A DNA stretch of 53,992 bases from a virus: positions 1-53,992 of the IMG/VR virus record IMGVR_UViG_3300037294_000227; one strand, given 5' to 3'. Within the stretch, counting starts at the first letter, position 1; each line of letters opens with the position of its first letter. A model generated the notes under the pieces. The model searched no databases. It saw only the letters and a program-made list of their open reading frames with translations, and was not told the origin of the DNA. The position numbers were made by a program, and so were the translations under genes. Of the stretch, positions 1 to 53,100 are shown piece after piece.

Positions 1-157
1 AAATAATTTTAATAAAATCTTCAAAAGTCCAGTCAATGTTTTTTATATTGTTGTTTGGCAACAGCCCATGAAAGTTTCTGCTACACATAGGACAACTTGC
101 CTGGCAGCGAGTAGTTAGTTCGATTTCAATTTTATGAAGCTGATCAAATTTAAACAC
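1..157 (-). CDS. Radical SAM protein, N-terminal fragment (cut by window edge)
   Basis: The minus strand is open from a GTG at 157 to the left edge (52 codons). An AAGGAA ribosome site lies about 8 nt upstream of the GTG. The fragment contains the radical-SAM cluster motif with Cys18, Cys22 and Cys25 (TTRCQASCPMCSRN), which binds the 4Fe-4S cluster that cleaves S-adenosylmethionine. The Cys spacing and the flanking residues match the complete protein encoded at 1189-2241, so the two are paralogues. The fragment diverges from the plus-strand gene at 186. The rest of the protein, including any SPASM domain, lies outside the window. The assignment to the radical-SAM superfamily is firm; the substrate is unknown. 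Confidence 0.85.
   Translation of the reverse strand, partial: MFKFDQLHKIEIELTTRCQASCPMCSRNFHGLLPNNNIKNIDWTFEDFIKII
73..106. repeat. 34-bp near-identical segment shared with 2157-2190
   Basis: This stretch covers the radical-SAM CxxxCxxC motif of the edge-truncated gene. It matches 2157-2190 at 33 of 34 positions; the only difference is A83 versus G2167. It is a coding repeat left by gene duplication. Confidence 0.85.
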
Positions 158-173
158 AAACGGTTCCTTTTAG

Positions 174-186
174 TTAAATATTTATG
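174..186. promoter_or_regulatory. Divergent late-promoter-like box
   Basis: TTAAATA (174-180, plus strand) and CATAAATA (186-179, minus strand) overlap around the palindrome TAAATATTTA at 175-184. Both resemble the T4 late -10 box TATAAATA. On the minus strand the box leaves room for a short leader with an AAGGAA site before the GTG at 157. On the plus strand only 5 nt separate the box from the GTG at 186. Promoter function is inferred from sequence only. Confidence 0.45.
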
Positions 187-1232
187 TGAACAACATATCA
201 GCAATAAAATTAAAACAAAAAGAACCAATGATGGTTACTTGGGACACTGGCAGACGTTGTAATTTTGATTGCAGCTACTGTGATCTTTCTCGACACGATA
301 CATTTAGTCCATTGACCTCTTTAAAATCATTGCAACTTACATACAAATTTATACAAGAGTACACCAAGCTGTACAATCAACCCAACGCTAATATTGCATT
401 TACTGGCGGCGAACCAACTGTAAATCCTAATTTTTGGCAGTTGATCGATACTATTGAAAACTTTACATTAGGATTGACCACAAACGGAACATTTCCAACA
501 AATAAAATAGATACAATTTTAAACAAATTTGTAGCAGTAACTATAAGCTGGCATTCTGAAATCGATCAAAAACTCAAAGATAGAGCAATAGAAAACGCAA
601 TACTATTAAGCGCCGCAGGGTTTAACGTTCGCGTAAATGTAATGATGCACACCGATTGTTGGAACGAATGTATACAAGCATACGATAAGCTAACATCAGC
701 AGGAGTAACTACAAATGCAGTTATTATCGGCGATGGCAATTTAGGGAGTACTGAATTTTACAAAGACGCTACTGGAACGTTGAGACGAACCAGTCATCCT
801 TATACCGAAGAACAGCAATTGTGGTATTTTAATATCAAAGGTCTTGATACTAACATTATTAACGATATAAAAAGTGGAAATCAACTGCCACGTAGCTGTT
901 GCGGGAACAGAGATCTAATGGGAAAATGCAATGGATGTTGGACTGATATTACGGCTGTTAACACAAATTTTAAAGGATGGTTTTGTAGTGTGAACAAATA
1001 TTTTATGCATATAGATCAGCACACCGGAAATGTGTATCATCATCAAACCTGTAAGGCAAAATTCAATAACGAAAGAGGCCCAATCGGCAATCTTAAAAAC
1101 ACAGATCTTATATTGGATTATGTATCTAAAAATGCAAACAATACAATAGTTTGTCCAAACTTGCGATGCGGATGTGGAATGTGTGCGCCTAAAGCTCAGA
1201 ATAAATCTGAACTTGATCGTTTGGGTTATTAA
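186..1232 (+). CDS. Radical SAM protein with C-terminal twitch/SPASM-like cysteine cluster
   Basis: This 348-residue protein has the radical-SAM motif at Cys25, Cys29 and Cys32 (GRRCNFDCSYC) and the SAM-binding GGEP motif at residues 74-77. The last ~110 residues carry many cysteines (SCCGN, CNGCW, GWFC, then RCGCGMC), which look like a twitch/SPASM auxiliary 4Fe-4S site. Enzymes of this type act on peptides, proteins or small metabolites; the substrate here is unknown. It is a close paralogue of the gene at 4166-5254: both share NVMMH, GPIGNLK and CAPKA. The start is either GTG 186, which is 5 nt after a TTAAATA box, or ATG 228, just before the first strand. Its 3' end overlaps the convergent gene at 1189-2241 by 44 bp. 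Confidence 0.88.
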   Translation: MNNISAIKLKQKEPMMVTWDTGRRCNFDCSYCDLSRHDTFSPLTSLKSLQLTYKFIQEYTKLYNQPNANIAFTGGEPTVNPNFWQLIDTIENFTLGLTTNGTFPTNKIDTILNKFVAVTISWHSEIDQKLKDRAIENAILLSAAGFNVRVNVMMHTDCWNECIQAYDKLTSAGVTTNAVIIGDGNLGSTEFYKDATGTLRRTSHPYTEEQQLWYFNIKGLDTNIINDIKSGNQLPRSCCGNRDLMGKCNGCWTDITAVNTNFKGWFCSVNKYFMHIDQHTGNVYHHQTCKAKFNNERGPIGNLKNTDLILDYVSKNANNTIVCPNLRCGCGMCAPKAQNKSELDRLGY

Positions 1233-2241
1233 AAGTATTCCCGCAAGTTCTAGCACAGGTCCATAGTTTGTTTATGTTCCAATACTTTTTCCAACATTGT
1301 TGAAACTGTGTGGTTTCCAATACTGTGCGTATACCGTGAGAGGCGCTGGTGTCTCCTAGTTCTGCAATTAACTGCAAATATTGCTTTTTAATATAATCCT
1401 TAGGAGTAGCAAGCGTATCAGTTGGTTTGTAATAATCATACGGAATAGCTGCAAGAAAACAACAAGGCATTATATTACGATGTGCATCTATATATAATTC
1501 ACCTTTGTGTTTTGCATAACAACTTATTTGAGTATCATCGATTATCTTTGCAACTACATTCAAATCGCTTACATCAAAATACTTTGCTTTATTGTTTGAC
1601 GGTGGCTCCAAATAATATTCAGTATCTCCAGTTTTGTTTAACACCGAAAACTTTTTTTCAAAATTAAATCTATTACTGTCTTTGACACTAAAATATTTAA
1701 ACCCGTGTGTTTTTGCCAATGCTTCGGCAGCTTCAACTTGATGTTGGTTGTGCTTGAATTTTATAAAACTCCATTCGGCAATTCCTCCTGCTTTTATAAA
1801 AGCCTTTGCATTGTCTAATATCTTATCAAAGTCTGTGCCAATTCTGTATTTACTGTGTGTGTCGCGTAAACCGTCGATTGCAAAAATTACTCTATGTTCT
1901 GTAGACAAATGTTTTACAAAACTTTTCCAATAACTGACATTTCGTAGACTACCATTTGTATGTATTTCTACACTAATATTTTGAGTTTTTAATATTTCTG
2001 TCATCAATTGCAAGTCGTTGTTTACTACAGGGTCACCAAAATTTCCGCAAAATGTAATGTGTTTTATAGTATCAAACACCGGTTGTACAATAGTTTTAAA
2101 ATCTGATACAGACCAATCTGTTTCTATTAGTTTGGTATTTGGCAATCCGCTGTGATAGTTTCTGCTGCACATAGGACAACTTGCCTGGCACTTATTTGTT
2201 ATTTCTAAATGTAAGCTTTTAAGATCTGTATACTGGAACAT
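1189..2241 (-). CDS. Radical SAM protein with C-terminal SPASM-like region
   Basis: This 350-residue protein has the radical-SAM cysteines at 18, 22 and 25 (NKCQASCPMC). At the usual GGEP position it has CGNFGDP (residues 65-71). C-terminal cysteines (NIMPCCF, then FQQCW, WTCARTCG) suggest an auxiliary Fe-S cluster domain of the SPASM type. It is a paralogue of the gene cut at the left edge, with a nearly identical 34-bp stretch. It is divergent from the hydroxylase-like gene at 2280 and convergent with the gene at 186-1232. The start ATG at 2241 lies only 4 nt from a CATAAATA box. The superfamily assignment is strong; the substrate is unknown. Confidence 0.86.
   Translation of the reverse strand: MFQYTDLKSLHLEITNKCQASCPMCSRNYHSGLPNTKLIETDWSVSDFKTIVQPVFDTIKHITFCGNFGDPVVNNDLQLMTEILKTQNISVEIHTNGSLRNVSYWKSFVKHLSTEHRVIFAIDGLRDTHSKYRIGTDFDKILDNAKAFIKAGGIAEWSFIKFKHNQHQVEAAEALAKTHGFKYFSVKDSNRFNFEKKFSVLNKTGDTEYYLEPPSNNKAKYFDVSDLNVVAKIIDDTQISCYAKHKGELYIDAHRNIMPCCFLAAIPYDYYKPTDTLATPKDYIKKQYLQLIAELGDTSASHGIRTVLETTQFQQCWKKYWNINKLWTCARTCGNTFNNPNDQVQIYSEL
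2157..2190. repeat. 34-bp near-identical segment shared with 73-106
   Basis: This is the partner copy of the coding repeat at 73-106, with one mismatch at 2167. It covers the CxxxCxxC motif. Confidence 0.85.
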
Positions 2242-2245
2242 GTTT

Positions 2246-2253: not shown

Positions 2254-2267
2254 TGCGTATATTTCTC

Positions 2268-2275: not shown

Positions 2276-2279
2276 ATGT

Positions 2280-3026
2280 ATGGACAGTTCTCATCATAGT
2301 TTTTTTCAAAAAAATAAAATATATACACAACAATTAAACAGACTTCCAAGTCTAACAATGTCAGACGAAGAAATTGCATTATGGATGTTGCAAGGCGGAC
2401 ATGGGGATTGGATTGAGTTAGATTTGCAAATCAATACATCTTCTTGGATTGCAGAATATCATACTGTGCAAGATATGTTTGTGCCTCACAGAGACATTGA
2501 TTCTGGTGAAGGAACACATCAGGGGTGGAGTGCTTGCACATTGCATGGCATAAGCTACGATAAAACAAATGTGTGGCAAGAGTATGGATACAAAACTGAG
2601 CCAGAATACAACTGGACACAAGCAGGAAAAAAATGCCCAAGCATAAAGTCTGCATTTGAGTCATTGCCTGCAGAACACCTAGCTAGAGTTAGATTTATGA
2701 AACTTGATGCAGGAGGATGGATTTCTCCTCACAACGACCTAGGACCAGGAATCAACTGGAATAAAATTTTTGATTATCCGTTGCCCATGACAATTGCAGT
2801 AGATCACCCCCAAGAATGCTACATGACCCTAGAAAATAGAGGAGTTGTTCCATTTAAAAATAATAAAGCATTTTTAGTTAACATTTTAAACAATCACAGT
2901 GTAATTAATTTTAGCAAGCAAGATAGAATACATGTCATAGGACATCTGTTTGTAGGAAATCGTAAAAAAGAATATTGTAAATTATTAGCAGACAGTTATA
3001 GGAAATCCTATGTTTTACAAAGGTAA
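2280..3026 (+). CDS. Aspartyl/asparaginyl beta-hydroxylase-like 2OG-Fe(II) oxygenase
   Basis: This 248-residue protein has the signature of the Asp/Asn hydroxylase family. His151-x-Asp153 lies in SPHND, and a second block with His206 and Arg216 reads HSVINFSKQDRIH. In this family the histidines bind Fe(II), and the arginine binds 2-oxoglutarate. Family members hydroxylate Asp/Asn side chains or small substrates. The target here is unknown, though the nearby radical-SAM and glycosyltransferase genes suggest a modification pathway. Start ATG 2280 is used; ATG 2358 is an alternative if transcription begins near 2281. The last 17 bp overlap the next gene, so the two are probably co-transcribed. 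Confidence 0.75.
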   Translation: MDSSHHSFFQKNKIYTQQLNRLPSLTMSDEEIALWMLQGGHGDWIELDLQINTSSWIAEYHTVQDMFVPHRDIDSGEGTHQGWSACTLHGISYDKTNVWQEYGYKTEPEYNWTQAGKKCPSIKSAFESLPAEHLARVRFMKLDAGGWISPHNDLGPGINWNKIFDYPLPMTIAVDHPQECYMTLENRGVVPFKNNKAFLVNILNNHSVINFSKQDRIHVIGHLFVGNRKKEYCKLLADSYRKSYVLQR

Positions 3027-4215
3027 AAACAGTTGTGCAGATTTGTGTGTTTGTATAATCGACGACACCGATCAATACAGTCCTTGGATGAAAGAGCTTG
3101 TAAAAAATACTGCGGATTATACTATTACAAATGTAACTGGAATTGGATACGATGTGTGGGTTGGGCGACACGAACACACACTATTAAAACAAGTAGTGGG
3201 CCAATATAAAAGAGCAGTTGTTATTAGTGCAGGAACCGAATTTATAAATGGTAATAAATTCTTTGATAATTTGCCCGAGGATTTTTTTATTCTTGGGCAC
3301 GTACTTGATATGGGAGATGGCTATTACGGATTACACCATCAGTGCTATGTAATAGATCTTGATTTGTATGCTATGTTAGGAAATCCCGAACCTGGACAAA
3401 CACAATTGCTGGAACAGCATATCCAAACTGTTCCAAATAGAAGTAAAGAAAACATTCACGACGATTACACACCTCTTTGGATTTCAAAAGGATCTGCACA
3501 AAAAGTATACAAACACAAGTTTCACGGATGGAGGATAATCAGTGCAGGTCTTGAGGCAGATTATAAAATTTACGCTTTCGACAGCACGCTACGAGACGGA
3601 AAGCATTTCTTGTATTGTGATGTAGATACCAGTGACTGGATTTACAAACGCTACAATCATTGTTTGCAAAATCATGTGTACAAAGACAGCACAGGCAGTG
3701 TGGATTTTCCAAGACCTTACAATTGCAACATCGATCATTTGATATATCCTGCTGCTGGCACAACATGGTTGGACAAATTAAAAAAGCACGGATACGATAG
3801 TTCTACCAAAGTAACGTTTTATGACTATAATCAATCAGCGTTAGATTACATGCAAGCTAATACTAGAGATATGGGTTTAATTTTTGAATTTGCATTGTTG
3901 GATGCAATTGCAGAGCCCGAGTGCATAGTCGAACTTGTTGACAAAAACTGCAATCCGCAAGGTGTTGTTATACACATGAGCAATATTTTTTCGTACGAAG
4001 GAACAGCAAGTTTAATGCCGTTAAAATATCGAGTGCAACAAGAAAATAAACTTATCGAAAGTGTACAATCAAAAATTCCTATGTGTGTTTTAGAATTTGA
4101 TCAGCGTGCAGCCGAAGGATTTGTACCATGGCGTGCAGAAACAGGACTTGCAAAAGACTTAGAACTCACTGATCTTTCAACTGCGGTACTTCCTCCGTGG
4201 CATACTTATGATTGA
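3010..4215 (+). CDS. Hypothetical two-domain protein, methyltransferase-like C-terminal half
   Basis: I do not recognise this 401-residue protein with certainty. The N-terminal ~140 residues alternate strands and helices (VVISAGTEF, then DFFILGHVLDMGDG), as in nucleotide-sugar or Rossmann-type domains. Residues ~250-310 (IYPAAGTTWL, then VTFYDYNQSALDYM) resemble the glycine-rich loop and acidic residue of a class I SAM methyltransferase. Start ATG 3010 has an AGGA site 7-8 nt upstream, inside the end of the hydroxylase-like gene, so translation is probably coupled. The 3' end overlaps the convergent radical-SAM gene by 50 bp. The protein could be a glycosyltransferase/methyltransferase fusion, but this is inference only. 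Confidence 0.6.
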   Translation: MFYKGKNSCADLCVCIIDDTDQYSPWMKELVKNTADYTITNVTGIGYDVWVGRHEHTLLKQVVGQYKRAVVISAGTEFINGNKFFDNLPEDFFILGHVLDMGDGYYGLHHQCYVIDLDLYAMLGNPEPGQTQLLEQHIQTVPNRSKENIHDDYTPLWISKGSAQKVYKHKFHGWRIISAGLEADYKIYAFDSTLRDGKHFLYCDVDTSDWIYKRYNHCLQNHVYKDSTGSVDFPRPYNCNIDHLIYPAAGTTWLDKLKKHGYDSSTKVTFYDYNQSALDYMQANTRDMGLIFEFALLDAIAEPECIVELVDKNCNPQGVVIHMSNIFSYEGTASLMPLKYRVQQENKLIESVQSKIPMCVLEFDQRAAEGFVPWRAETGLAKDLELTDLSTAVLPPWHTYD

Positions 4216-5254
4216 TTATTTTAAACTTTTCAGGAGTTGCTGCTTTTGGTGCGCATAGTCCACACCAGCATTTTGTTTTTTTGCACACAATAGTCGGTGT
4301 TCCTAGCAATAATCTGTCTATGATGGCACGAGTGTCTTTTAAGTTTCCTATGGGCCCAATGCGATCGTCCCAGGTCATACGACAGTCTTTGTTTGTAAAA
4401 ACTTCACCTGTGGTTTGTCTAATATATAAAAAGTATTTGTCAACACTACAACTCCACCCTTGGAAGTTGTTTCCTTCTACATACTTTGTGTCATAACTAT
4501 TGTTAACACACATGCTGTTGCCGCCGCAACATGCTCTTCCGGTACTGGCTAAGTCGTGACCGCGAGTAAGTACTGCTTTTATTTTTTGTGTTAACTTTGT
4601 AGGAGTTTTTCCTGTTAAAAACTTTACCTGTCGTGGAGAATAATTAAAACGTATGTCAAACCAGTGATGATCAATTTGTCTCACGTGGTATGGTGCTTTA
4701 ATTGCTTTTAACCAGCGTATTATTTTTAAACATTTTAGCCATAATTCTTTTTTTGGATGCATCATAACATTTACTTGGAATGATTTTTTTCTAATTATCA
4801 ATCCTCTAACATTGTCTTTGAATAGCCCTTCTTGAGTAGAATTTCCTTCTGCATGAAAACTTACGGTAAAATGATCTACTAACTTGCAAACTTTGTCCCA
4901 CTGATGCCGACCTACTACTGCATTTGTTATCAACGCTACTGTAAGTGTATAATCTATCTTTTCTTTTTTTGATTGTATGTATTCTAATATTTCAATGATG
5001 TTTGGGTGAAACACGCTTTCGCCGCCTTGAACGTTTAATCCTGCGATTCTCATATGGCTGGGCTTATTGTTCATTTGTATCTGTAAATATTCAAATATAA
5101 AATCAACAGTTTTTAAGCTATCTTCGAGACTAGGATGTTGCAATCTATTATTATGCCCATCGCCGCAATAACTACAATCCATATTGCATTTTAAAGTGCT
5201 TTCCCATGCAACTTGAAAACTTAAATTGTTTACTGGTACTAATGAATCTATCAT
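4166..5254 (-). CDS. Radical SAM protein with C-terminal twitch-like cysteine cluster
   Basis: This is the last gene of the seven-gene minus-strand operon. The start is ATG 5254 (362 residues) rather than the upstream in-frame ATG, because it forms an ATGA overlap with the stop of the preceding gene. The radical-SAM cysteines are 23, 27 and 30 (LKCNMDCSYC). The SAM motif is GGES instead of GGEP. The C-terminal cysteines (ACCGG, GWSC, KDC, KCWCGLC) match those of the gene at 186-1232, including GPIGNLK and CAPKA. It also shares the SxHxE and NVMMH motifs found in the four C-terminal-twitch paralogues here. The substrate is unknown. Confidence 0.87.
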   Translation of the reverse strand: MIDSLVPVNNLSFQVAWESTLKCNMDCSYCGDGHNNRLQHPSLEDSLKTVDFIFEYLQIQMNNKPSHMRIAGLNVQGGESVFHPNIIEILEYIQSKKEKIDYTLTVALITNAVVGRHQWDKVCKLVDHFTVSFHAEGNSTQEGLFKDNVRGLIIRKKSFQVNVMMHPKKELWLKCLKIIRWLKAIKAPYHVRQIDHHWFDIRFNYSPRQVKFLTGKTPTKLTQKIKAVLTRGHDLASTGRACCGGNSMCVNNSYDTKYVEGNNFQGWSCSVDKYFLYIRQTTGEVFTNKDCRMTWDDRIGPIGNLKDTRAIIDRLLLGTPTIVCKKTKCWCGLCAPKAATPEKFKIINHKYATEEVPQLKDQ

Positions 5255-6207
5255 TGTATTATCCATTTTTTTATAGAAATTTCTCCGGCGCATCCGCATA
5301 TATCGCGTGAGCAAAGTGTCGGCTGTATTGTAGGGCTGAACTCAAAGTCTTTATCGTTAATGTTATAAGTCTTATCAAATAGCCGCTGGTTGCAATTGGA
5401 TGTTATTACTCTGTTGGTAATTTTAATATGATCGACTCCTAAATTACAGTGCCATCCTTTAAAATAGTTTAAATTATTTCGAGTAATCCAACTGTCACTG
5501 TTTGTAATAGTTTTTTCATTATTGTTGTGCGTGATTGTAATTTCTGTTCTTGGTTTACGAGAAGTAGAATGAAACCAATCTGCGTTAGGATATCGTTTAA
5601 TAGGTTCTTCAAAATATTTTAATTGCTCAATTGTATAACAAGATTGACCATCAAACAATACAACTTTTGCAACAATTGGCCAAGGCAGTGTTAACTGTTG
5701 CATCTGTTCGACTAACTCAACGCATGTGTTAAATGCAGCTGGATCTATTAACACATCTACATTAACTAGTATCTCCGAACTGTATAAAAAATCAGCAAGA
5801 GTTTTAATTTTGTTTATTTTTGCATATTCGTGGTGTACGCTAATATTAATATGATCCAGCACTCTTGCTGCTTTTTGCCACCATATTATACCTCTAGTAC
5901 CATTGGTACTAATTTCTAAAATACAATTGTATTTTGATTTTAAGAAAATACAAAGTTCTAAAAAGTCATCCCATAATGTGGGTTCACCTCCAACAAAAAA
6001 AATATTAAACACATCTTTGCCATTTGCTGCATAATGATTTAGAACTTTTGATAAGTTTGTTTTAACGATTTCTAGGTCCGGCCAATTTGTATTGCCCTCG
6101 TTGCTGCCCGGGAAGCAGTAATTGCATTTTTGATTGCAAGTATTTCCTAGCATATATTCTATTCTAAGAACATTATCAGGTTGATTATTTTCTACTTTTA
6201 TTATCAT
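5251..6207 (-). CDS. Radical SAM protein with C-terminal twitch-like cluster
   Basis: This 318-residue protein has radical-SAM cysteines at 24, 28 and 31 (NTCNQKCNYC) and VGGEPTLW as SAM-binding loop. Its C-terminus has FKGWHC, SNC and LCSRDICGC, an arrangement of extra cysteines like that in the gene at 19391-20359, its closest paralogue in the window. Both lie directly downstream of an N-terminal-twitch radical-SAM gene with a small overlap. Here the overlap with the upstream gene is ATGA (6204-6207). This tight pairing suggests that the two enzymes act together. The substrate is unknown. Confidence 0.87.
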   Translation of the reverse strand: MIIKVENNQPDNVLRIEYMLGNTCNQKCNYCFPGSNEGNTNWPDLEIVKTNLSKVLNHYAANGKDVFNIFFVGGEPTLWDDFLELCIFLKSKYNCILEISTNGTRGIIWWQKAARVLDHINISVHHEYAKINKIKTLADFLYSSEILVNVDVLIDPAAFNTCVELVEQMQQLTLPWPIVAKVVLFDGQSCYTIEQLKYFEEPIKRYPNADWFHSTSRKPRTEITITHNNNEKTITNSDSWITRNNLNYFKGWHCNLGVDHIKITNRVITSNCNQRLFDKTYNINDKDFEFSPTIQPTLCSRDICGCAGEISIKKWIIQ

Positions 6208-7583
6208 AATAAGTGTGCTAACTCAGGAAAAGTATTTTTGGCGCTAATTCCTCTAATTGCATCTAACTTGTTTACATATTCCTTGAATCCAGGTAGCCTT
6301 TCGGTATGGTCAGCACTTTCCATATAAACTAATATTGATTCCCAACGTCTCCATCCATAAGGATTTGACTCCCAAAAACTTTGATCTAAGTTGCCGTGAT
6401 TTTGTAACCATATCTTAAACTGCATAAACTTGTCACGTATTTCTTGTTTATCATCTTTGGAGAAATTTTGTATATTTAAAAATGTTGGTATGTATAAGAG
6501 GTGCATATTAATCAGGCCGCCGCCTGCTTGCACATTTTTAATTACTTCTGTATTGACTTTTTTAAAGTTACTATTGACTTTCCAATGTATAAAATCTGGA
6601 AGGTGCTTGATATTAAACATCTGAATAGCAGTAGCAATACTAGGACGTATGTTATCAGGAGTGTTGTCCAGCATATGGAGGTTACGCTCAACTGTTTCCC
6701 AATCTGTTGGGTACCTAATGTAATTGTTACGATCTGTATGTGCGTCAATGCTGACTCCGACTTTTACAACTGCAAAATGTTTCCATAGTTCGATAAGTTC
6801 TTCGTCTACAAGAATGCCATTGGTGTTATAACGCAGCCTAATTTTTTTATTGTGTCCACTGCGTACAATTTCTTCGATAAACTTTTTATGTTCTTTGATC
6901 ATTAAAGGTTCGCCGCCTGCGAAGTACACCTCTTCTAAATACGGAATTTGTTTGTACAATTGATCCCAAAATATTTCATTTTCGTGCCATTTGTTATTAA
7001 AGGACGATTTATCCCATTGCATCTGCCGCTTGACTTCAGGATCTTCTAATTGTGGTGCTAGCACTTTCCAGTCAGCTACCCATTTACTACTGTCATGTGG
7101 CGAACACATAACACACTTGATATTGCAAGTATGCCCAAGCCTTAGATCTAAATATTTGAGTTGATCTTTGTATCTACCATCAGATTGCGTGTCGTTTAAC
7201 ATAGTGACAGGATCGAGGCCGCGCTCCATCCAAGTAGTGGTTTCCCACATACGCTTGCTCACAACTCCTTGTTGCTCTTCAGCAAAGCACTTGGTACAAC
7301 TTGCTGGAATGTTACCGTCCATCATTGTGCGTCTGATGTTACGCATATATTCACTATTCCATGCCTGCATAGGAGTGGTAGTACTAAAGTTTACTGGATC
7401 ACCTGCGTCATCCTTTACTAAGCCCACTGTATGATCAACACCAGCACCACTAGCATTAGCACTGCAACATACCCGCATGTCTCCATTTGGTCGTGTTGCC
7501 ATGTGTATCCAAGGTAACGCACAAAATGTAGGAGTAGCAGTTTCTGCAATGGTGTCTTGCCATTGATCTAATAGTTGTTTCAT
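6204..7583 (-). CDS. N-terminal-twitch radical SAM protein
   Basis: This 459-residue protein has the cysteine-rich accessory domain before the radical-SAM core: FCALPWIHM near residue 20, Cys39-Cys40, and Cys96/Cys99. The core cysteines are 153, 157 and 160 (GHTCNIKCVMC), followed by FAGGEPL. This order matches the family named in databases as twitch domain-containing radical SAM proteins, found in phages and bacteria; their function is not settled to my knowledge. It is paralogous to the genes at 20352, 21634 and 22853, sharing FCxxPW and a later S-D...R...Y-R block. It overlaps both neighbours by 4 bp (ATGA). Confidence 0.88.
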   Translation of the reverse strand: MKQLLDQWQDTIAETATPTFCALPWIHMATRPNGDMRVCCSANASGAGVDHTVGLVKDDAGDPVNFSTTTPMQAWNSEYMRNIRRTMMDGNIPASCTKCFAEEQQGVVSKRMWETTTWMERGLDPVTMLNDTQSDGRYKDQLKYLDLRLGHTCNIKCVMCSPHDSSKWVADWKVLAPQLEDPEVKRQMQWDKSSFNNKWHENEIFWDQLYKQIPYLEEVYFAGGEPLMIKEHKKFIEEIVRSGHNKKIRLRYNTNGILVDEELIELWKHFAVVKVGVSIDAHTDRNNYIRYPTDWETVERNLHMLDNTPDNIRPSIATAIQMFNIKHLPDFIHWKVNSNFKKVNTEVIKNVQAGGGLINMHLLYIPTFLNIQNFSKDDKQEIRDKFMQFKIWLQNHGNLDQSFWESNPYGWRRWESILVYMESADHTERLPGFKEYVNKLDAIRGISAKNTFPELAHLL

Positions 7584-11313: not shown

Positions 11314-11323
11314 TGTGTACCTA

Positions 11324-11331
11324 TATAAATA
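11324..11331 (+). promoter_or_regulatory. Late-promoter-like box TATAAATA
   Basis: A perfect TATAAATA is followed by 5 nt and then the ATG at 11337. By analogy with T4 late promoters, transcription would begin at about the A of the start codon. No Shine-Dalgarno sequence is present. Confidence 0.5.
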
Positions 11332-11336
11332 TTACT

Positions 11337-11924: not shown

Positions 11925-11927
11925 GTT

Positions 11928-12728: not shown

Positions 12729-12736
12729 GGCACTCC

Positions 12737-12743
12737 TTAAATA
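12737..12743 (+). promoter_or_regulatory. Degenerate late-promoter-like box TTAAATA
   Basis: TTAAATA is followed by 5 nt and then the ATG at 12749. It also covers the AAGGAG ribosome site of the divergent gene. It is a weaker match to TATAAATA, but the spacing to the start codon is identical to that at 11337. Confidence 0.35.
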
Positions 12744-12748
12744 GTTGT

Positions 12749-14524: not shown

Positions 14525-14535
14525 TTCTTACCTTG

Positions 14536-14543
14536 AATAAATA
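14536..14543 (+). promoter_or_regulatory. Late-promoter-like box AATAAATA
   Basis: AATAAATA lies 30 nt before ATG 14574. The expected leader (~25 nt) contains a GGAG ribosome site 9 nt before the start. It is a conventional layout. Confidence 0.4.
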
Positions 14544-14573
14544 TATGTATATATTTATCAACGGAGTTACTGT

Positions 14574-16633: not shown

Positions 16634-17271
16634 ATATTCTCAATTACAGGCCATTCACCTGAGTTAACTGCAAATGCTGTTTCGTAAACTTTTTGCATAT
16701 TTATTAGTCCATCAGACTCAAACTGACCAAATCTCCAAACGTCCATTTTACCTAGTATAGGTGTTAGTTTTTCTTTAGGCAAAAAAGGAGTAGACCGAGA
16801 AACACATCCGTAAAAGTCATGTATTCTAATATTTTCGTTAGAATCAACAAAGCATGTATGCGGATAATAATTAATTTTATACACTGAATTTTCAAGCACT
16901 TTTAAAATATTTTTAATCTGACCTGCATATTCATGCTTGTAAGACTTGCGCTCGATAATGTGATTTAAACTGCTGTCATACCATTTGAAAAATATGCGTC
17001 GAGACGCTGTATCTATATCAATAATTTCAGGTAAAAACGTTTCATTTTTAAAATGAGTTAACCATTTTAATTCATTATTAAAATAAAAATCACACACTTC
17101 TTCGTTGTATAAATATCTGTCAAAAAAGTAACTTTTGTTAATAGTGTAATCCATGCAAAAAATAGTTTTTTCAGGATTAACATAAGGAACATATACAAGG
17201 TTAGGCCTAACCTTGGCTCCTTGTTTATACTTGTAAAAAATGTTCCAGTTGTTGATATCCATTAATTCCAT
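16630..17271 (-). CDS. Small protein-kinase-fold-like protein
   Basis: This 213-residue protein has a pattern that recalls aminoglycoside/lipopolysaccharide-kinase-like folds. NNELKWLTHF (~residue 65) sits where the kinase alpha-C glutamate lies. RRIFFKWYDSSLNHII resembles the hinge, and PHTCFVDSNENIRIHDFYG resembles the catalytic and DFG segments (HxxxxxD, then HDFxG). The N-lobe glycine loop and lysine are not obvious and the protein is short, so activity is uncertain. Alternatively it is an unrelated phage protein. It overlaps the B12-type radical-SAM gene by 10 bp and the SGNH gene by 4 bp, so the three are probably translated from one message. Confidence 0.5.
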   Translation of the reverse strand: MELMDINNWNIFYKYKQGAKVRPNLVYVPYVNPEKTIFCMDYTINKSYFFDRYLYNEEVCDFYFNNELKWLTHFKNETFLPEIIDIDTASRRIFFKWYDSSLNHIIERKSYKHEYAGQIKNILKVLENSVYKINYYPHTCFVDSNENIRIHDFYGCVSRSTPFLPKEKLTPILGKMDVWRFGQFESDGLINMQKVYETAFAVNSGEWPVIENI

Positions 17272-19391
17272 TTACCGTTTTTAATATACCTATATTTAAA
17301 ACTAAAATCGACAGTGTCATTCAATAATTCTTCTTCGTTGAGTAAGTCTGTAAAGTCTTGTCCAGAACGCCCTGATTCAAGGTCCCAATTTGGTTTTGCA
17401 AGTCGTCTTGCTCTTTTAGCTGTATTACTCATCATACGCGAATAATCCTGAGCATAAAAAGGACCCTTGCGCCCTAGTGGCGGACGAACTCTATCGTCAT
17501 AAGGGTTGTCAACTTGTTTAAAATCCCAAGAAAAATCAGCTTCCCAATTTCCGTCGTCATCAATGTTAAATTTGTAAACTGCATTTAACATACCAGGACC
17601 AAACTGACTACCAAATTCTTTTAAATCAATTTCAGGGTTAAACAATACTTCAGCTGTGTAACCTCCACGAGTTTTCCACAGCATTCTAAAGAAAGGCCAC
17701 ATTTCATTGACTAGTGTATCTGCAAAAGGATTAAGACCCGGGTTAATAATATTGTAATCAAAATCTTCGTAGCTGTCAATTTCTTTTATATTAGAAGGAT
17801 TGTTTAACTTGATTTTGTAATGTTCTTTTGCAAGATTATATCGAATAGGATATCCAAAAGGCATTTCAGTACATCCTACCATAAAATCAATAAACATATG
17901 AAATGATTTTACACGGTGCATTACATGCGTTCCGCCTTTGGTAAAATCATTCGTAATCCAATGTCCTTGATATTTTTGATAACTGAGATTAAACTTATGT
18001 GGATTCTGTCCTGCAATAGTTTCAGGGCCTAGTCCAAATCCTACACCAGCGCCAATATTGTTGATATTCATTTCTCGCATACGCCAAAGAAATGTCATAC
18101 TGTCTGCAAAGTCTTTGTGATCTTCTGTAGGAAATCCTACAATCCAATTTGTTGCAGCAAAAATTCCAACTTCTTTTCCGTGTTTAAAGTTAGCTTCCAT
18201 TTCCTCTACTGTTACACCTTTGGCCATATCATTGAGAACTTTTTGACTTCCGCTTTCTATGCCATAGTTGAGCATAATACAGCCACCGGCTTTAAGGTCT
18301 TTAAAGTATTCAAGATCCATTCTACCATCGCATCTTGCATATCCAGTCCAATGAATTTTCAAGTCTTTGGCTGCAACACCTTTCACAAATGCACGTAATT
18401 CGTTGACGTTGCCATTTACTAGACTATCGATAAACCAAAAAACATTGGTACCTTTGTTATAATACAACCACTCAACTTCACCAATTAAATCAACTGATTG
18501 GCGCTGACGATATTTCCAAAAATGTGTTTCTTCACAAAAAGTACACTTGGCTGTGCAACCACGACTAAACTCTGTGTTTACTCCGTTGGGTATTTCGTAC
18601 TGACTAAAATCAATACTTTCATAATCTGGCATTGGCAAACCACTGATATTAATTTTTTCACCGAATGGTTGTTCAACAAATTGTGTACCTTCGTGTTCTC
18701 TTCCTAATTCTATGTCTGCAAGGATTCTAAGCAACACTGCCTCGCCTTCGCCGTTGACAACATAATCATAATAAGGATATTGCTCAAACCAACTTTTTTG
18801 AGCGTTGCTCCCGCCTACTGCAATCTTAATATCCGGACGTAATTCTTTTAAGCGGCGGCACATCCATTTTGTAGGTTCTTCGCTGATATAATATATTGTA
18901 AATCCTACAACTTGCGGATCAAGTGCTAGAATTTCATGCACTGCTTCCTCTAGCATAGGCTCAAGAACAGGATGAATATCGTTCATATACGTTTCACCTT
19001 CCCAATGCCAACTGGCACTAGGATCCCAAAGTCTAAATGGAAATGCGTTGTTTGGTTGCCACTCAGTTTTGTATTTGTTATACACTCTTACATTTAAGTC
19101 AAGTATATGTGTTTCGTATCCTGCGCTTTTTGCAACTCCGCTGAGACGTGCTAAATTAAACGGAGGAAACTGAGGTGCCCATTCGGGACATAGTACTAGT
19201 ACAAGTTTTGTTTTACGAGTTTTATAATCAACATATACAGGTGTAAGATTTTTTTCAATTAATGCAGTAGACCTTGCATAAGGCTTAATTACTTCAAGCA
19301 TGTTCATATGCTTATCGTCTGCTGCACTCTCTGTTAATCTATCAGGAATTTCTGGTTCTGCTTTTGCTAAACCTTTGAGGTTAAAATCCAT
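17262..19391 (-). CDS. B12-binding-domain radical SAM protein
   Basis: At 709 residues this is the largest enzyme in the island. Residues ~60-220 form a Rossmann cobalamin-binding-like domain (KLVLVLCPEW, QVVGFTIYYIS, IKIAVGGSNA, YVVNGEGEAVLL). The radical-SAM core follows with Cys279, Cys283 and Cys286 (FSRGCTAKCTFCEETHFW). The domain order is that of cobalamin-dependent radical-SAM enzymes, often methylases or ring-forming enzymes. No DxHxxG base-off motif is visible, which is common in this class. Residues ~500-709 are not recognised. TAATG joins it to the upstream radical-SAM gene. If it is active, the cell must supply a cobalamin. Confidence 0.87.
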   Translation of the reverse strand: MDFNLKGLAKAEPEIPDRLTESAADDKHMNMLEVIKPYARSTALIEKNLTPVYVDYKTRKTKLVLVLCPEWAPQFPPFNLARLSGVAKSAGYETHILDLNVRVYNKYKTEWQPNNAFPFRLWDPSASWHWEGETYMNDIHPVLEPMLEEAVHEILALDPQVVGFTIYYISEEPTKWMCRRLKELRPDIKIAVGGSNAQKSWFEQYPYYDYVVNGEGEAVLLRILADIELGREHEGTQFVEQPFGEKINISGLPMPDYESIDFSQYEIPNGVNTEFSRGCTAKCTFCEETHFWKYRQRQSVDLIGEVEWLYYNKGTNVFWFIDSLVNGNVNELRAFVKGVAAKDLKIHWTGYARCDGRMDLEYFKDLKAGGCIMLNYGIESGSQKVLNDMAKGVTVEEMEANFKHGKEVGIFAATNWIVGFPTEDHKDFADSMTFLWRMREMNINNIGAGVGFGLGPETIAGQNPHKFNLSYQKYQGHWITNDFTKGGTHVMHRVKSFHMFIDFMVGCTEMPFGYPIRYNLAKEHYKIKLNNPSNIKEIDSYEDFDYNIINPGLNPFADTLVNEMWPFFRMLWKTRGGYTAEVLFNPEIDLKEFGSQFGPGMLNAVYKFNIDDDGNWEADFSWDFKQVDNPYDDRVRPPLGRKGPFYAQDYSRMMSNTAKRARRLAKPNWDLESGRSGQDFTDLLNEEELLNDTVDFSFKYRYIKNGKWN

Positions 19392-20359
19392 TAGTACTCC
19401 ATAAACTTTGGTATAATTATATCAGTGCCGCAATGGCAATGCGTCTTACTACATATAACAGGTTTTAGGTCAAAAGTCAAGTTTTCATCTAATATGTTGC
19501 CATGTTGATTTCCTACGCCGCAACTGGCGCTACTAACTTGTCCAATAGGATTAATAAACAAGCTATCATCAACTTGGCATTTCCATCCTTTAAAAAAGTT
19601 TTGTCGATCTGCAATAATTTGATTACTGTTTGTAGGTTGAATATTTCCGTTTGAATAGTGACTAATGCTGATAGCACTGTTTTCTCTATAAGGTTTAGGT
19701 AAACGCATTACAGTTTCAAACTGTGCAGTTTCTAAAAACTTTTGCTTTTCTGGATCTTTGTATTCCCAAGGACCGGCATTAACACTCATCTCATCAAACA
19801 ACGGTGTCCATTCTAAATTATAATTCGGAACTTCTTCGCGCACACGCTTGCCGAACTCAACCACTTCCCAAAACCGTTCTTCGTGCATTAACATTTTTGT
19901 ACACAAATAATCTACTTTATCACAAAGAAACTTTGCATTTTCAATATAACGATCCTTTTTACTAAATTCAACATGAAAACTCGCAACAATATCGTCAAAC
20001 AAATGATGATGCTGTTCCCAATATTTTAAAGGGCGTGACAAATTGGTATTAACTGCTACTGTTAAGTTGTTGCCTAGTTCATCTTTGAGATATTCTGTTA
20101 ACGGAATAAAATTTTCCCAATGCGTAGGTTCGCCACCACTGTAAAATATTTTAAAATGTCTATAGCCGCGATCTTGATATTGCTGGAATATATTACGTAC
20201 ATTGCGTAAGTATATATCAAGATTGCCGTTATTTCTGCTGTCGCCTGCCCAATTTCCTGGATTGCAGTATGTGCATTGAAAATTACAAAAATTATTTACT
20301 TGCCAAGTAAGACTCATATAAGGTTCTGCAATAGGAGTAATTTTTAATAAATCAGACAT
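19391..20359 (-). CDS. Radical SAM protein with C-terminal twitch-like cluster
   Basis: This 322-residue protein has core cysteines at 25, 29 and 32 (NNFCNFQCTYC) and YSGGEPTHW. The C-terminal cysteines are FKGWKC, SASC, ICSKTHCHC, matching the 5251-6207 protein (FKGWHC, SNC, LCSRDICGC). Both also share a tryptophan-rich middle and SxHxE (SFHVE here). It sits directly after an N-terminal-twitch radical-SAM gene (8-bp overlap), repeating the gene order of the other operon. The downstream B12-type gene is joined by TAATG. Substrate unknown. Confidence 0.88.
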   Translation of the reverse strand: MSDLLKITPIAEPYMSLTWQVNNFCNFQCTYCNPGNWAGDSRNNGNLDIYLRNVRNIFQQYQDRGYRHFKIFYSGGEPTHWENFIPLTEYLKDELGNNLTVAVNTNLSRPLKYWEQHHHLFDDIVASFHVEFSKKDRYIENAKFLCDKVDYLCTKMLMHEERFWEVVEFGKRVREEVPNYNLEWTPLFDEMSVNAGPWEYKDPEKQKFLETAQFETVMRLPKPYRENSAISISHYSNGNIQPTNSNQIIADRQNFFKGWKCQVDDSLFINPIGQVSSASCGVGNQHGNILDENLTFDLKPVICSKTHCHCGTDIIIPKFMEY

Positions 20360-21641
20360 ACTTACGCAACCATTCCATTTCTGGGTACACAGACCAAAAA
20401 TCTTCTTTACGGTGCTGATCTAGTCCGTGATTCTTTTCAAAAAAATCTTTTAGGCGCTGTTGATTAAACGAACCTGTGTTCATAAATTGAATAACGCTAT
20501 CAATTTTTCCAAGTACATCTTTTACTACATCAGGTTTTGCAATCATACGTTCTTTGATTTTATCATAAGCCCACGCTTTGTAATCGATATACTTTGCTCT
20601 TAGTTCTATTTTTATATCTTCGGGTATATTATCGATCCGCATAAAGTTTGGATCTGTGAGTATATTTAGCCTACAATTCTCAATATCGACTAAACCTCGT
20701 TCTACCCAATCCATATGAAAATCTGGCCAATTCCATACATTGTATAGGCTAATAGTAGGAGTAAGTTCAAAGTGTACATGCGGAACATGTTCTAACATTT
20801 CAAGTCTGTTACGTTCAATCTGTTCCCAGTTGGTGCCATGTCGAGAAAATTCTGCTCTAGATCCGTCTGCATCTAAACTTGCGCTTACTTGTATATCACT
20901 AAAATGTTTCCAATAATCGATAATACTTTTTTTCTTAAATCGTAAATTACTGAAATTTGTAGTGTAACGCAGACGCACACCTGTCTTGCCGTCAGCAATC
21001 CATTTATCTAATATTTTATAATGTTCGTCTGTGATTAGTGGCTCGCCGCCTGCCCAGTATACTTCTTCGACATTGGGTAAGAACTCTTGTAACTCTTCCC
21101 AAAAAGTTATATGTTTTGCTACGTTAACTACAATGCTACCATCGTTGTTGAGAATGTTAGCAACTTCGTGTTTTCCGTATAGTTCGCCGTGTTCTTGTGC
21201 ATGTAAACTACTTAACTCAGGACCACAAGTGCGACATTTCATATTGCAAATATTACTAAAACGAATATCCATATATGCCATGCGCATATCTTCTTCTGGA
21301 ATACTGCCGTCTGTTGCTGTTTTTTCTACTAGATCAAAATGCTTGTCGCCGAACCATTGATTATGATTTTTACGAAGAGTCCAGATATATGTACTGTCTT
21401 CTAATTCATAACAACGATTACAACAATTAAGTTTTTTACCTTCTAACATAGCAAGACGTAATTCTTTATAGCGATCACTATTCCATGTTTCTTTCACGCC
21501 ATCTTTTTTAACATTACCAAATGGTTGATCACTGTCAGCAATGCAACAGGGCATAGCCCTACCGTCTGGCCAAACATGCATATGGATCCACGGTAATATA
21601 CAAAACGCTTTATTTTCGTTTAACAATACATCTTTAATCAT
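20352..21641 (-). CDS. N-terminal-twitch radical SAM protein
   Basis: This 429-residue protein opens with the accessory cysteine domain: FCILPWIHM (Cys14), Cys32-Cys33, and Cys73/74/77. The radical-SAM core follows with Cys132, Cys136 and Cys139 (FSNICNMKCRTC) and WAGGEPL. It is most like the next gene upstream (21634): both share an N-terminal LLNEnKtFC segment and RFSNICNxKCRTC, so they are a recent tandem pair. The family is known in phages under the twitch-domain radical-SAM name; its reaction is unknown. It overlaps its neighbours by 8 bp on both sides. Confidence 0.9.
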   Translation of the reverse strand: MIKDVLLNENKAFCILPWIHMHVWPDGRAMPCCIADSDQPFGNVKKDGVKETWNSDRYKELRLAMLEGKKLNCCNRCYELEDSTYIWTLRKNHNQWFGDKHFDLVEKTATDGSIPEEDMRMAYMDIRFSNICNMKCRTCGPELSSLHAQEHGELYGKHEVANILNNDGSIVVNVAKHITFWEELQEFLPNVEEVYWAGGEPLITDEHYKILDKWIADGKTGVRLRYTTNFSNLRFKKKSIIDYWKHFSDIQVSASLDADGSRAEFSRHGTNWEQIERNRLEMLEHVPHVHFELTPTISLYNVWNWPDFHMDWVERGLVDIENCRLNILTDPNFMRIDNIPEDIKIELRAKYIDYKAWAYDKIKERMIAKPDVVKDVLGKIDSVIQFMNTGSFNQQRLKDFFEKNHGLDQHRKEDFWSVYPEMEWLRKYV

Positions 21642-22860
21642 CTAGCATCTCTTTTAATTCAGGGAAAATTTTTGTAAAATCTTCTCCTCTAATTTCATCT
21701 CGACGTTTTACATGATGCCGAAATTCAACCTTGTGTTCATTCCATTGATTTTCTTCGTTGGTAAAGTTAATAGCGTCATTAACATGCACTGCTTGATACC
21801 AATCACCGTCGATCATATACTGGTGTACTTTTTTTAATCTGCTGGATCCTATATCTTTTATAGATTGGGGCAATATCTTAGAACAATAATAAGTAGGAGT
21901 TAGTGCTCTGTAAATACTTATCATGTCCTTTCGACGTAGCAGCAGTTTTCCGATCATATAATTTAAAAATTCATCCATGGTTGCATAGTTAAACGCACTT
22001 AATACTGTATTAAACTGAAAGTCAATATAATCCAAATCTCTGATGCTTTTTAAATTTTCTTCTACCACACCCCAGTCTGTTCCGTGACGCAAGTATTCTG
22101 CACGTTCGCCATAATGATCAAGACTTGCACTGATTTCAACACGCTTAAACTTGCTCCACATATCAAGTATATCATATTTTTTATATTTAAAATTACTCAT
22201 ATTGGTATTATAACGTAGTGTAATGTTTTTGTTTGCGCCAGTACGAATCATCTCTTCAAGCAATACATAATGCTCGTCGGTAATAAGAGGTTCACCCCCT
22301 GCAAAGTAAGCAAGATCCATATTTGGTACTTGTGCTTTGATTTCTTCTAGCAACGCACCTGAGTTGTCAGCATGTTGAATAATACGATAATCCGGAGGTG
22401 TCCAGTCATGCTGTTTCATTTCTTGAGCCCATTGGCTGCTGAATTCGCTACCGCAGGTTCTGCATTTGAAATTGCAAATGTTACTAAACCTTACATCAAA
22501 ATATTTCATTTTAAATTCAGGAACAGTGCCGTCTGGTTGTGTGGTAGTTACAACTTCGTCAAAGTCTTTACCAAAGTGTTCCAAACTGTATTTTCTAAAA
22601 CTAAATGGCGAAGTTTCCTCGTGCTTATAACAATAGTTACAGATGCTGTTTTTTTTGCCAGCAAGCATATCAAGGCGCAACTGTTTCATTTTGTCACCAT
22701 TGAACACTTGTGCTAAACTCTTGCCTTTGATATTATCGAACGGGGCAGTATAATCACTGCTACAGCACGGATATACATTTCCAAGTGGTGTCACATTCAT
22801 ATGCGTCCAAGGAAACATACAAAATGTCTTGCTTTCATTTAATAACTTATCTTTATTCAC
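21634..22860 (-). CDS. N-terminal-twitch radical SAM protein
   Basis: This 408-residue protein has FCMFPWTHM (Cys14), Cys32-Cys33, Cys74/Cys77, core Cys129, Cys133 and Cys136 (FSNICNFKCRTC), and FAGGEPL. It is a tandem paralogue of the protein at 20352-21641. Shared later blocks include SASLDxxGxRAEYxRHGTxW, the usual region after the SAM-binding strands. The order of domains (accessory cluster first) separates it from the four C-terminal-twitch proteins in the window. It overlaps its neighbours by 8 bp. Substrate unknown. Confidence 0.9.
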   Translation of the reverse strand: MNKDKLLNESKTFCMFPWTHMNVTPLGNVYPCCSSDYTAPFDNIKGKSLAQVFNGDKMKQLRLDMLAGKKNSICNYCYKHEETSPFSFRKYSLEHFGKDFDEVVTTTQPDGTVPEFKMKYFDVRFSNICNFKCRTCGSEFSSQWAQEMKQHDWTPPDYRIIQHADNSGALLEEIKAQVPNMDLAYFAGGEPLITDEHYVLLEEMIRTGANKNITLRYNTNMSNFKYKKYDILDMWSKFKRVEISASLDHYGERAEYLRHGTDWGVVEENLKSIRDLDYIDFQFNTVLSAFNYATMDEFLNYMIGKLLLRRKDMISIYRALTPTYYCSKILPQSIKDIGSSRLKKVHQYMIDGDWYQAVHVNDAINFTNEENQWNEHKVEFRHHVKRRDEIRGEDFTKIFPELKEMLDD

Positions 22861-24232
22861 TTACATTCTCACACAGTTTAAAAAAGTCTTTCATTTCAGG
22901 AAAGTTTGCTTCAAAGTCATTTCCTCTACGAGCGTCTTGCTCTTTGAAAAAATTCCAAAAATCTTTGCGACCTTCAAGAAGCTTTTCGTCGTTATATTGA
23001 GTTGTTTTCATATAGTCAACGACACGTCTAAATTTTTCGTATTCAAGATTAGTAAAGTGTTGCTTACTACCTTCTTGTGTGTTGTCTTTGATGAATTGCA
23101 AATGACTTTCCATATACGGCAAATATTCTTCTTTAGGGAGAATATTAATGTCATATTGTAAGGGCTCTTTGAGATAAGGAGTGTCAAAGTGAATGCGCTG
23201 CCACCGACCGCTGTTGGTATCGTTGTATTTTGCACGCCATTCAAGCATTTTTTCCAACAGGCTTTGAAATGTAGTCACACTAAACAAATTGAATGTAATC
23301 ATAAACGTAACTTGCGCAGTTGTGTTGCGCATGAAATAATCAAGATTACGTTCAAACACTTCGATATCAAGTCCGTCGCGAATATATTCAGCACGCTTAC
23401 CCCAAGTGTCCACACTTGTAAACAATTTAAAGTTTTTAATTTTATTTTGGGTAAGCAAGCTGTTTACTCCATCAGTAAACTTTTCAAGCTGCCGTTCTTT
23501 ACCTCCAAGATTACTGTTTACATTTAATTCAAGATGCGGCTTGGGATCTTTTTCAAGTTCATCAAACAATCGATAAGTGCTTTTTTGAATAGTAGGTTCG
23601 CCGCCTGTGATACGCAAGATGTTTAGTGTTTTGCTAACTTCGGGCCACCATTTCCACCATGCTCTTACATAAGGATTGCTGTCTTCTTCATAAACACGAA
23701 ACCAATCAATGTCACAGCGGTGGTTCTTAGACATAGTATAAGGACCGTGTTGACGTATTTCGTTGTGATAACGACTGCTGGCTTTAGGGTGACAGTATCC
23801 GCAACGGAAATTACATTCGTTACCAAATGAAACTTCAATGTATTCAGGATTTACGTTAAAGTCCCAAGGATTAAATTTAATTTCTTGCAAGCGTTCTTCG
23901 TTGTAAATACTGCCGCTTCGGATATGACGATCACTAACATAGTCATCGCCCATGTTTTCAATGTTCCAACAATATTGACATCCTACACATTGCTTGCCTT
24001 CGAGCATTTCTTTGCGTTCAAGTTTTTTGTGTTTGGTATTGTGCAATGCACTTGGATTGGTCAGCAATTCGTCTACATCAATTTTATGAGGAGCCGGGTG
24101 ATAACAACTGTGTGTTTCGCCTGTTTGCAAATATATTGTAGTATGGTACCATTTAGCAAAACAAAATGTTGGACTGAAATGACGATTTGTGATTCCGTTG
24201 ATGGCTTTTAAACGATCTTGATCCAATGACAT
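22853..24232 (-). CDS. N-terminal-twitch radical SAM protein, divergent
   Basis: This 459-residue protein has the accessory cysteines in altered form: FCFAKWYHTT (Cys24), a single Cys43 in SCYHPAPH instead of CysCys, then Cys82/Cys85/Cys88. The core is Cys140, Cys144 and Cys147 (NECNFRCGYC), with ITGGEPT. SVDTWGKRAEYIRDG matches the block seen in the two downstream paralogues. The change in the first half may alter the auxiliary cluster. It is joined to the upstream glycosyltransferase by TAATG and overlaps the downstream gene by 8 bp. Substrate unknown. Confidence 0.87.
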   Translation of the reverse strand: MSLDQDRLKAINGITNRHFSPTFCFAKWYHTTIYLQTGETHSCYHPAPHKIDVDELLTNPSALHNTKHKKLERKEMLEGKQCVGCQYCWNIENMGDDYVSDRHIRSGSIYNEERLQEIKFNPWDFNVNPEYIEVSFGNECNFRCGYCHPKASSRYHNEIRQHGPYTMSKNHRCDIDWFRVYEEDSNPYVRAWWKWWPEVSKTLNILRITGGEPTIQKSTYRLFDELEKDPKPHLELNVNSNLGGKERQLEKFTDGVNSLLTQNKIKNFKLFTSVDTWGKRAEYIRDGLDIEVFERNLDYFMRNTTAQVTFMITFNLFSVTTFQSLLEKMLEWRAKYNDTNSGRWQRIHFDTPYLKEPLQYDINILPKEEYLPYMESHLQFIKDNTQEGSKQHFTNLEYEKFRRVVDYMKTTQYNDEKLLEGRKDFWNFFKEQDARRGNDFEANFPEMKDFFKLCENVSE

Positions 24233-53077: not shown

Positions 53078-53100
53078 GCGCACTTCCTCAGTTTATCTAA

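Follow-up and report, generated by a model that had tools for sequence, protein, structure and literature searches.

Radical S-adenosylmethionine (rSAM) enzymes carry out chemistry that few other enzymes manage, and here we describe an island rich in their genes in a 53,992-base linear IMG/VR virus record (IMGVR_UViG_3300037294_000227; the whole stretch analysed, hereafter the window), a 54-kb fragment of an aquatic jumbo myovirus. The T4-like genome TARA_ERS488813_N000010, with 12 rSAM genes reported in 2017, resembles the present lineage in that a single environmental phage genome combines an A-type Fe-S carrier with many rSAM genes (PMC5332604); the passage on it gives the rSAMs as a count under Fe-S metabolism, with no description there of families, synteny, operon or bacterial counterpart. 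In pelagimyophages, rSAM-related cassettes of the host-recognition clusters (HRCs) differ between two close genomes, and the HRCs of pelagi- and cyanomyophages are, like the island, hypervariable regions beside tail fibres with glycosyltransferases (GTs) (PMC7029224). Apart from these two papers, no description of such rSAM arrays was found in the open-access literature.

The rSAM genes fill the left half of the window, and the right half holds jumbo-myovirus structural genes, including one for a 4,625-aa virion protein. Homologues of the gp25 and gp6 baseplate proteins adjoin the island, in agreement with the phage origin proposed in an earlier reading of the sequence alone (the first-pass annotation). 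No tRNA and no Rfam match was found in the window. As in an HRC, the island lies beside tail genes, includes GTs and varies in content between relatives; it is an rSAM-rich variant of the marine-myophage host-recognition island (PMC7029224), the core of which may be a new pathway. It differs from the published HRCs in belonging to a jumbo-phage lineage and in having a syntenic core of many rSAM genes; in addition, its promoter motif is conserved and its toolkit recurs in Bdellovibrionota chromosomes.

The eleven rSAM cores counted by the first-pass annotation were all recovered, as ten complete open reading frames (ORFs) and one cut at the contig edge (Table 1; genes are named by their left coordinate). 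A PF04055 search gave ten matches in the window, nine of them above the curated cut-off (two of the nine only with their frame neighbours), while 20352 scored below it and was secured by NF033640. Each complete rSAM ORF has exactly one CxxxCxxC, for which the chance expectation, from a Cys content of ~2%, is ~0.1 over all island ORFs. The three architectures that had been proposed also stood. The accessory-cluster-first proteins (6204, 20352, 21634 and 22853) scored 303–388 bits with the N_Twi_rSAM model NF033640 (cut-off 170), a family that forms arrays here in phages and Bdellovibrionota, and their cysteines C14, C32, C74 and C77, together with C132, C136 and C139 (20352 numbering), are invariant in 28/28 diverse homologues. 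The SPASM model (PF13186) matched the N-terminal domain of 6204, 20352 and 21634, with no match in 22853. The cluster-last group (186, 4166, 5251 and 19391) gave no match to Pfam SPASM, despite core cysteines and four C-terminal cysteines that are invariant in 43/43 homologues (a fifth is present in 88%), and the B12-domain-first protein 17262 matched PF02310 and PF04055. The 1189 type, which had been set apart as a further group, also has a conserved C-terminal cysteine set (95–100% of 19 homologues), so that it too is of the cluster-last kind.

The cluster-binding cysteines, whose loss from most members had been named as one observation that would speak against the set, are kept, and the three core cysteines are invariant in every family tested. 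Compared with the sister contig G001, the rSAM genes showed 69–88% identity, pN of 0.08–0.20 and pS of ~0.7–0.9; omega (dN/dS) was ~0.05–0.12 where computable, with synonymous sites near saturation and dS incomputable for several of the genes. The measurable rSAM genes are under strong purifying selection. The core of the N-Twitch profile matched SkfB (the best PDB match), viperin, MoaA and BlsE, and its N-terminal domain matched the C-terminal Twitch domain of BtrN, so that the auxiliary domain has been shifted to the front.

The island range given at first, 1–24232, proved too short, since GT and GT-like genes extend to 27409 and ~15 further rSAM genes lie past the window's left edge in G001, alongside genes for PP-loop enzymes, putative Fe/2OG oxygenases, short-chain dehydrogenases/reductases (SDR), GNAT proteins and fibre-like repeats (for the oxygenases, SDR and GNAT these are motif readings). 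The window thus truncates a larger island. Through 20352 we found 41 viral contigs, all with rSAM genes (41/41), and 24 more through the amidinotransferase, again all with rSAM genes (24/24, up to 22). Since both sets (65 contigs in total, many of them fragments) were selected by island genes, the 100% carriage is not a background rate. Several sister contigs have 14–25 rSAM genes each, with 25 in the 77 kb of G001, 21 in the 170 kb of G019 and 19 each in G011 and G021.

The gene order of the window is kept in G001, G012, G015, G016 and G019, and the order tail - 27406 - 26576 - 25738 - 24232 - 22853 - 20352 - 6204 - (17262) - 19391 persists in contigs that are only ~35–50% identical; the island is a trait of the lineage. 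Among the 41 loci chosen via a 20352 relative, 22853-type genes were present in 40, GT-A-like in 37, GT8-like in 35 and 19391-type in 33, and the B12-rSAM (17262 type) reached the same threshold in only 7. Conservation is uneven: relative to G001, the core rSAM, epimerase and amidinotransferase proteins are ~75–88% identical, and several GT10-like and SGNH-like proteins 33–60%. Locus L240 (contig G042) is 99.86% identical to window positions 3932–16502 and then departs. It lacks the hydroxylase and both rSAM genes 186 and 1189, and the C-terminus of 3010 continues in frame into a fibre-like repeat protein (about 3753–4913 of the reversed contig, opposite window position 3932); either recombination has removed a cassette or the assembly is chimeric.

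Further genes were observed in the sister islands. A very conserved small protein of 73–93 aa (L125:13488-13712 and relatives) is encoded beside rSAM and 7580-type genes in 7/8 contigs. Gene 17 of G001 (L125:16276-19185) encodes a 969-aa protein with repeated domain copies fused to a 24232-like GT domain, and the adjoining gene 18 encodes a fibre-like repeat protein.

Twelve minus-strand genes, from 27753 down to 15890, each overlap by 1–11 nt and include two predicted GT folds, a paralogue of one of them and five rSAM genes. A TTGACA-16/17-TATAAT-type motif, matching the sigma70 consensus at 10–12 of 12 positions, lies 17–22 nt ahead of the first operon gene in 6/6 contigs containing that gene; its score was reached by 0–92 of 20,000 shuffles per sequence. 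The bases around it have diverged between the six contigs, which are homologous and hence not fully independent. A T4-type late motif, TATAAATA, was found upstream of tail gene 28846 in 4/4 contigs scanned and is readable in the other two. Both are conserved motifs and we take them as a predicted operon promoter and a predicted late site. The motifs ahead of the operon point away from the other refuting condition named at first, a lack of transcription during infection.

The predicted structure of 25738 (pLDDT 89) matched glycogenin (4e-8) and LgtC (1e-7, TM 0.54) in Foldseek, and in the DxD motif of its family D90 is nearly invariant and D92 invariant. By fold and motif it is probably a GT8 enzyme with predicted glycosyltransferase activity, a call better supported than the GT-A-like one for 24232 (pLDDT 84.5), the top matches of which were SunS/ThuS, WrtF and TarP at ~1e-4 with TM of ~0.3–0.38. 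PDB profile searches with the GT10-like and 7580 families returned no match; those with the SGNH family returned only ferritin, over an unrelated segment, which we dismissed as chance. The 12749 protein is homologous over its full length to StrB, the inosamine-phosphate amidinotransferase (PDB 1bwd, E 1.5e-55), and is by this homology a StrB-like amidinotransferase; it lacks the surrounding streptomycin pathway and is paired instead with a shortened DegT aminotransferase. A 27% identical, weak homologue of 3010, which has no Pfam or NCBIfam match, is present in a Bdellovibrionota island (G067). As for cofactor genes, an A-type Fe-S carrier gene was found in 8/11 long rSAM-rich contigs and a SAM synthetase gene in G019 and G065. 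Such carriers also occur in other T4-like phages, according to PMC5332604, and so fit working rSAM enzymes and are not specific to them. At G019:C1:41634-44617 (L131), the SAM synthetase and GTP cyclohydrolase I genes were observed ≤3 kb apart, near an amidinotransferase and an N-Twitch-like rSAM gene.

Table 1. Features of the window from left to right; names marked tentative, putative, predicted, -like or by eye are predictions.
Position	Strand	Feature	Basis or remark
2..157	-	truncated rSAM, 1189 type (similarity by eye)	open ORF with CxxxCxxC, cut at contig edge
186..1232	+	rSAM, C-terminal Cys cluster	PF04055 1.6e-12; Cys invariant
1189..2241	-	rSAM, SPASM-like C-terminal cysteines	PF04055 1.7e-8; Cys 95–100% conserved
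2280..3026	+	Asp/Asn hydroxylase-like (AspH-like, Fe/2OG) enzyme	PF05118 7.8e-10
3010..4215	+	401-aa protein	C-terminal half methyltransferase-like by eye only
4166..5314	-	rSAM, C-terminal Cys cluster	PF04055, conserved Cys
5251..6207	-	rSAM, C-terminal Cys cluster	PF04055, conserved Cys
6204..7583	-	N-Twitch rSAM	NF033640 4.8e-116
7580..8191	-	conserved protein, methyltransferase-like by eye	family alignment
8182..9339	-	GT10-like family member, tentative	motif reading of alignment
9318..10229	-	NAD-dependent sugar epimerase/dehydratase	PF01370 4.8e-41
10204..11313	-	GT10-like family member, tentative	motif reading
11247..11924	+	short DegT/DnrJ aminotransferase	PF01041 3.9e-14
11928..12782	-	SGNH-hydrolase-like	motif reading: invariant GCSxT, GxGN, DxHPD blocks
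12749..13753	+	amidinotransferase related to StrB	PDB 1bwd 1.5e-55
13730..14524	-	SGNH-like	motif reading, GCSYT
14574..15893	+	GT10-like family member, tentative	motif reading
15890..16633	-	DUF6071, SGNH-like by motif	PF19547 2.4e-16
16630..17271	-	kinase-like by eye, putative	no family match
17262..19391	-	B12-binding rSAM	PF02310 and PF04055; partial matches to PDB 9ccb, TokK
19391..20359	-	rSAM, C-terminal Cys cluster, conserved core	conserved Cys
20352..21641	-	N-Twitch rSAM, conserved core	NF033640 6.9e-114
21634..22860	-	N-Twitch rSAM	NF033640 6.3e-116
22853..24232	-	N-Twitch rSAM, conserved core	NF033640 3.4e-90
24232..25161	-	GT-A-like glycosyltransferase, predicted fold, conserved core	
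25158..25745	-	195-aa protein, coupled in operon	
25738..26586	-	GT8-like glycosyltransferase, predicted fold	
26576..27409	-	paralogue of 25738	same blast cluster, aligned
27406..27753	-	115-aa protein, first gene of overlapping operon	
27775..27802	-	predicted sigma70-type promoter, TTGACA-16-TATAAT	motif
27817..28797	-	tail-block gene	second sigma70 motif, 12/12, upstream at 28849-28821
28846..29733	-	tail-block gene	preceded by T4-type late motif TATAAATA
49643..53083		gp6-like baseplate gene	best relatives Salicola phage SCTP-2, Sinorhizobium phage Phosso, Agrobacterium phage Atu_ph07, PA5oct-like phages
53129..53575		gp25-like baseplate gene	

Two observations concern the right half of the window. 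The 203-aa virion-block protein at 35134–35745 is 84–95% identical across the lineage, far above the surrounding tail genes, and an 84-bp unit occurs in two copies at 98% identity (53711–53880) within the minus-strand ORF 53587–53991.

A megablast search of cultured phages with the island gave no match. With tblastn against 50,697 records, 21634 matched only two sister Vibrio phages and 17262 gave weak partial matches in four records; no match was obtained for 19391 and 22853, nor for the GT-A-like (24232) and 115-aa (27406) proteins. Such a set, called unusual in a phage by the first-pass annotation, is unusual among cultured phages, but it is not unique, since 65/65 related environmental contigs carry rSAM genes and the T4-like genome of PMC5332604 has 12. 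In the 255-kb Vibrio phage K566 we found five N-Twitch-like rSAM proteins (four are annotated as rSAM in the record), only 22–28% identical to those of the window; their genes are interspersed with Pfam GT8 genes, and LpxC and a gene annotated as PagP lie nearby. K566 represents an independent, distant cultured relative lineage and a practical test system.

The toolkit is not phage-specific, as it is also chromosomal in Bdellovibrionota. Searched with a 20352-type alignment, GTDB genomes gave 79 loci, and NF033640 was detected in 31/114 sampled Bdellovibrionota genomes compared with 0/14 control genomes, with up to 14 genes per genome in one search and 20 in another. Two chromosomal islands with housekeeping genes on their flanks, G067:C1:745-775 kb (L241-L243) and G161:C34 (L245-L247), have N-Twitch arrays, rSAM genes up to 66% identical to the phage ones, TauD and AspH domains, and homologues of the 24232, 7580, PP-loop, hydroxylase and amidinotransferase families. 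The Bdellovibrionota toolkit adjoins TauD dioxygenases, desaturase-like genes and PP-loop enzymes, and we found no open-access literature on these N-Twitch islands. At the Bdellovibrionales locus L161, 20352-, 19391- and 22853-like genes stand in a row next to an integrase-like gene. A tree of 110 N-Twitch proteins shows phage sequences mixed among bacterial ones, and its starred branches require at least 13 changes of label; it is a FastTree with long branches, in which exact joins are unsure and labels depend on contig assignment. This mixing speaks for an old gene family that phages and bacteria have exchanged repeatedly. Tandem duplication within the phage as the origin of the whole set was rejected for the N-Twitch members because the paralogues of the window are spread over different clades, each alongside Bdellovibrionota proteins. 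The exchange is no proof of Bdellovibrionota as hosts. The loci L167, L176, L178, L181, L182, L211, L214, L222 and L234, from metagenome-assembled genomes, are phage-like by content and carry the tail-GT-rSAM block; anyone surveying genome collections for rSAMs should beware of such contigs inside bacterial assemblies.

We tentatively favour the reading that the enzymes of the island form a pathway that tailors a glycan destined for virion fibres or the host envelope, because of the coupling to GTs, the sugar enzymes and the K566 context. The phage GTs would assemble a sugar chain, the epimerase, the short DegT aminotransferase and the StrB-like amidinotransferase would supply an amino or guanidino sugar, and the N-Twitch, C-terminal-cluster and B12 rSAMs would make radical changes (oxidation, epimerisation, C-methylation or cross-links) on the sugars or an attached residue, with the hydroxylase and SGNH enzymes finishing the product. 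This product would be carried by the tail fibres of the phage or by the host envelope and would control recognition or exclusion; since the island keeps its place next to the tail genes, we lean slightly to the fibres. Product variety would come from the variable GT and SGNH genes that surround a conserved core of rSAM, GT, epimerase and amidinotransferase genes. The dedicated cluster with other biosynthetic enzymes that the first-pass annotation described is present; that it serves a single multi-step pathway is what we infer. Several points weigh against glycan tailoring. Neither a substrate nor a product or virion modification was observed; the GT-A-like match of 24232 is weak (TM ~0.35), the PDB searches gave no close solved structure for the N-Twitch rSAMs, and to our knowledge this family has no known activity or function. 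A sigma70 promoter is not needed for a purely late, virion-directed function, and the setting of the Bdellovibrionota islands, with no tail genes, is not that of a typical glycan locus.

Because of those islands, two other explanations are kept open. One, which we consider rather unlikely, is a diffusible guanidino or amino small molecule common to the phage and Bdellovibrionota, directed for example against competitors or reprogramming host metabolism. The chromosomal islands with the same toolkit would suit it, as they have amidinotransferase, hydroxylase and PP-loop genes and lack tail genes; so would the StrB-like enzyme, the similarity of Twitch to BtrN, an aminocyclitol enzyme, and the occurrence of the DegT-amidinotransferase pair in contigs from which most of the rSAM core is missing. 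It has to face the conserved coupling to GTs beside tail genes, and no export or resistance gene was recognised (without a systematic search for one). The other, similarly doubtful, is direct protein modification resembling that of ribosomally synthesised and post-translationally modified peptides (RiPPs), in which rSAM, B12-rSAM and Asp-hydroxylase enzymes would act on a protein of the tail fibres or on a small peptide of the phage by epimerisation, C-methylation, cross-linking or hydroxylation, and the GTs would glycosylate the same protein. SkfB as best PDB match of the N-Twitch profile, the AspH-like hydroxylase and the fibre-like repeat proteins of sister islands agree with it. The 17262 protein shares with RiPP B12-rSAM C-methyltransferases (TIGR03975) and TokK a B12-binding domain followed by rSAM, and TIGR03975 was its best NCBIfam match, at 109.8 bits against a cut-off of 281.85; the model scores, however, are all far under curated cut-offs, and the sugar enzymes are left unexplained. 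Furthermore, no precursor or leader peptide was recognised at the island by reading the ORFs and one small-ORF family (no RiPP recognition element model was run), and the only recurrent small ORF, the one found in 7/8 contigs, is almost Cys-free with no visible core repeat.

Nucleic-acid hypermodification of the 7-deazaguanine type, by QueE-like rSAM and QueC-like PP-loop enzymes, appears improbable. The PP-loop family has QueC-like cysteines, with one member above the PF06508 cut-off, and FolE was found in three searched contigs >300 kb, which also have QueD, and in the 170-kb G019; against this, the FolE gene of G019 sits at 44 kb, away from the island beside the tail genes, the cluster-last members scored ~21–33 bits with the QueE model TIGR03963 (cut-off 260.1), and a single QueE would suffice, leaving twenty-odd rSAMs unexplained. 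Synthesis of chain-terminating nucleotides as by viperin, in phage-phage or phage-host conflict, is very improbable: several cluster-last enzymes have prokaryotic viperin (NF038283) as their best NCBIfam match, but the match is confined to the rSAM core at ≤45.7 bits (cut-off 180), and the conserved C-terminal cluster cysteines seen here are not known as a viperin feature.

Up to ~25 rSAMs in a virus lineage, some members of which have their own Fe-S carrier or SAM-synthetase genes, imply a costly pathway kept by selection. With a conserved operon, a bacterial counterpart and distant cultured relatives (Vibrio phages K566/K567), the function of the N-Twitch family is now testable. It is possible that N-Twitch, C-terminal-cluster and B12 rSAMs, Fe/2OG oxygenases, PP-loop enzymes and GTs make up an undescribed pathway exchanged between Bdellovibrionota and large aquatic phages, in which the phage would run its part from a host-type promoter and the molecule would remodel its own fibres or the host surface. 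The same enzyme set in phage and Bdellovibrionota chromosomes points to a biosynthetic pathway common to virus and bacterium, and raises the question of what chemistry-demanding trait bacteria of a predatory phylum and phages have in common.

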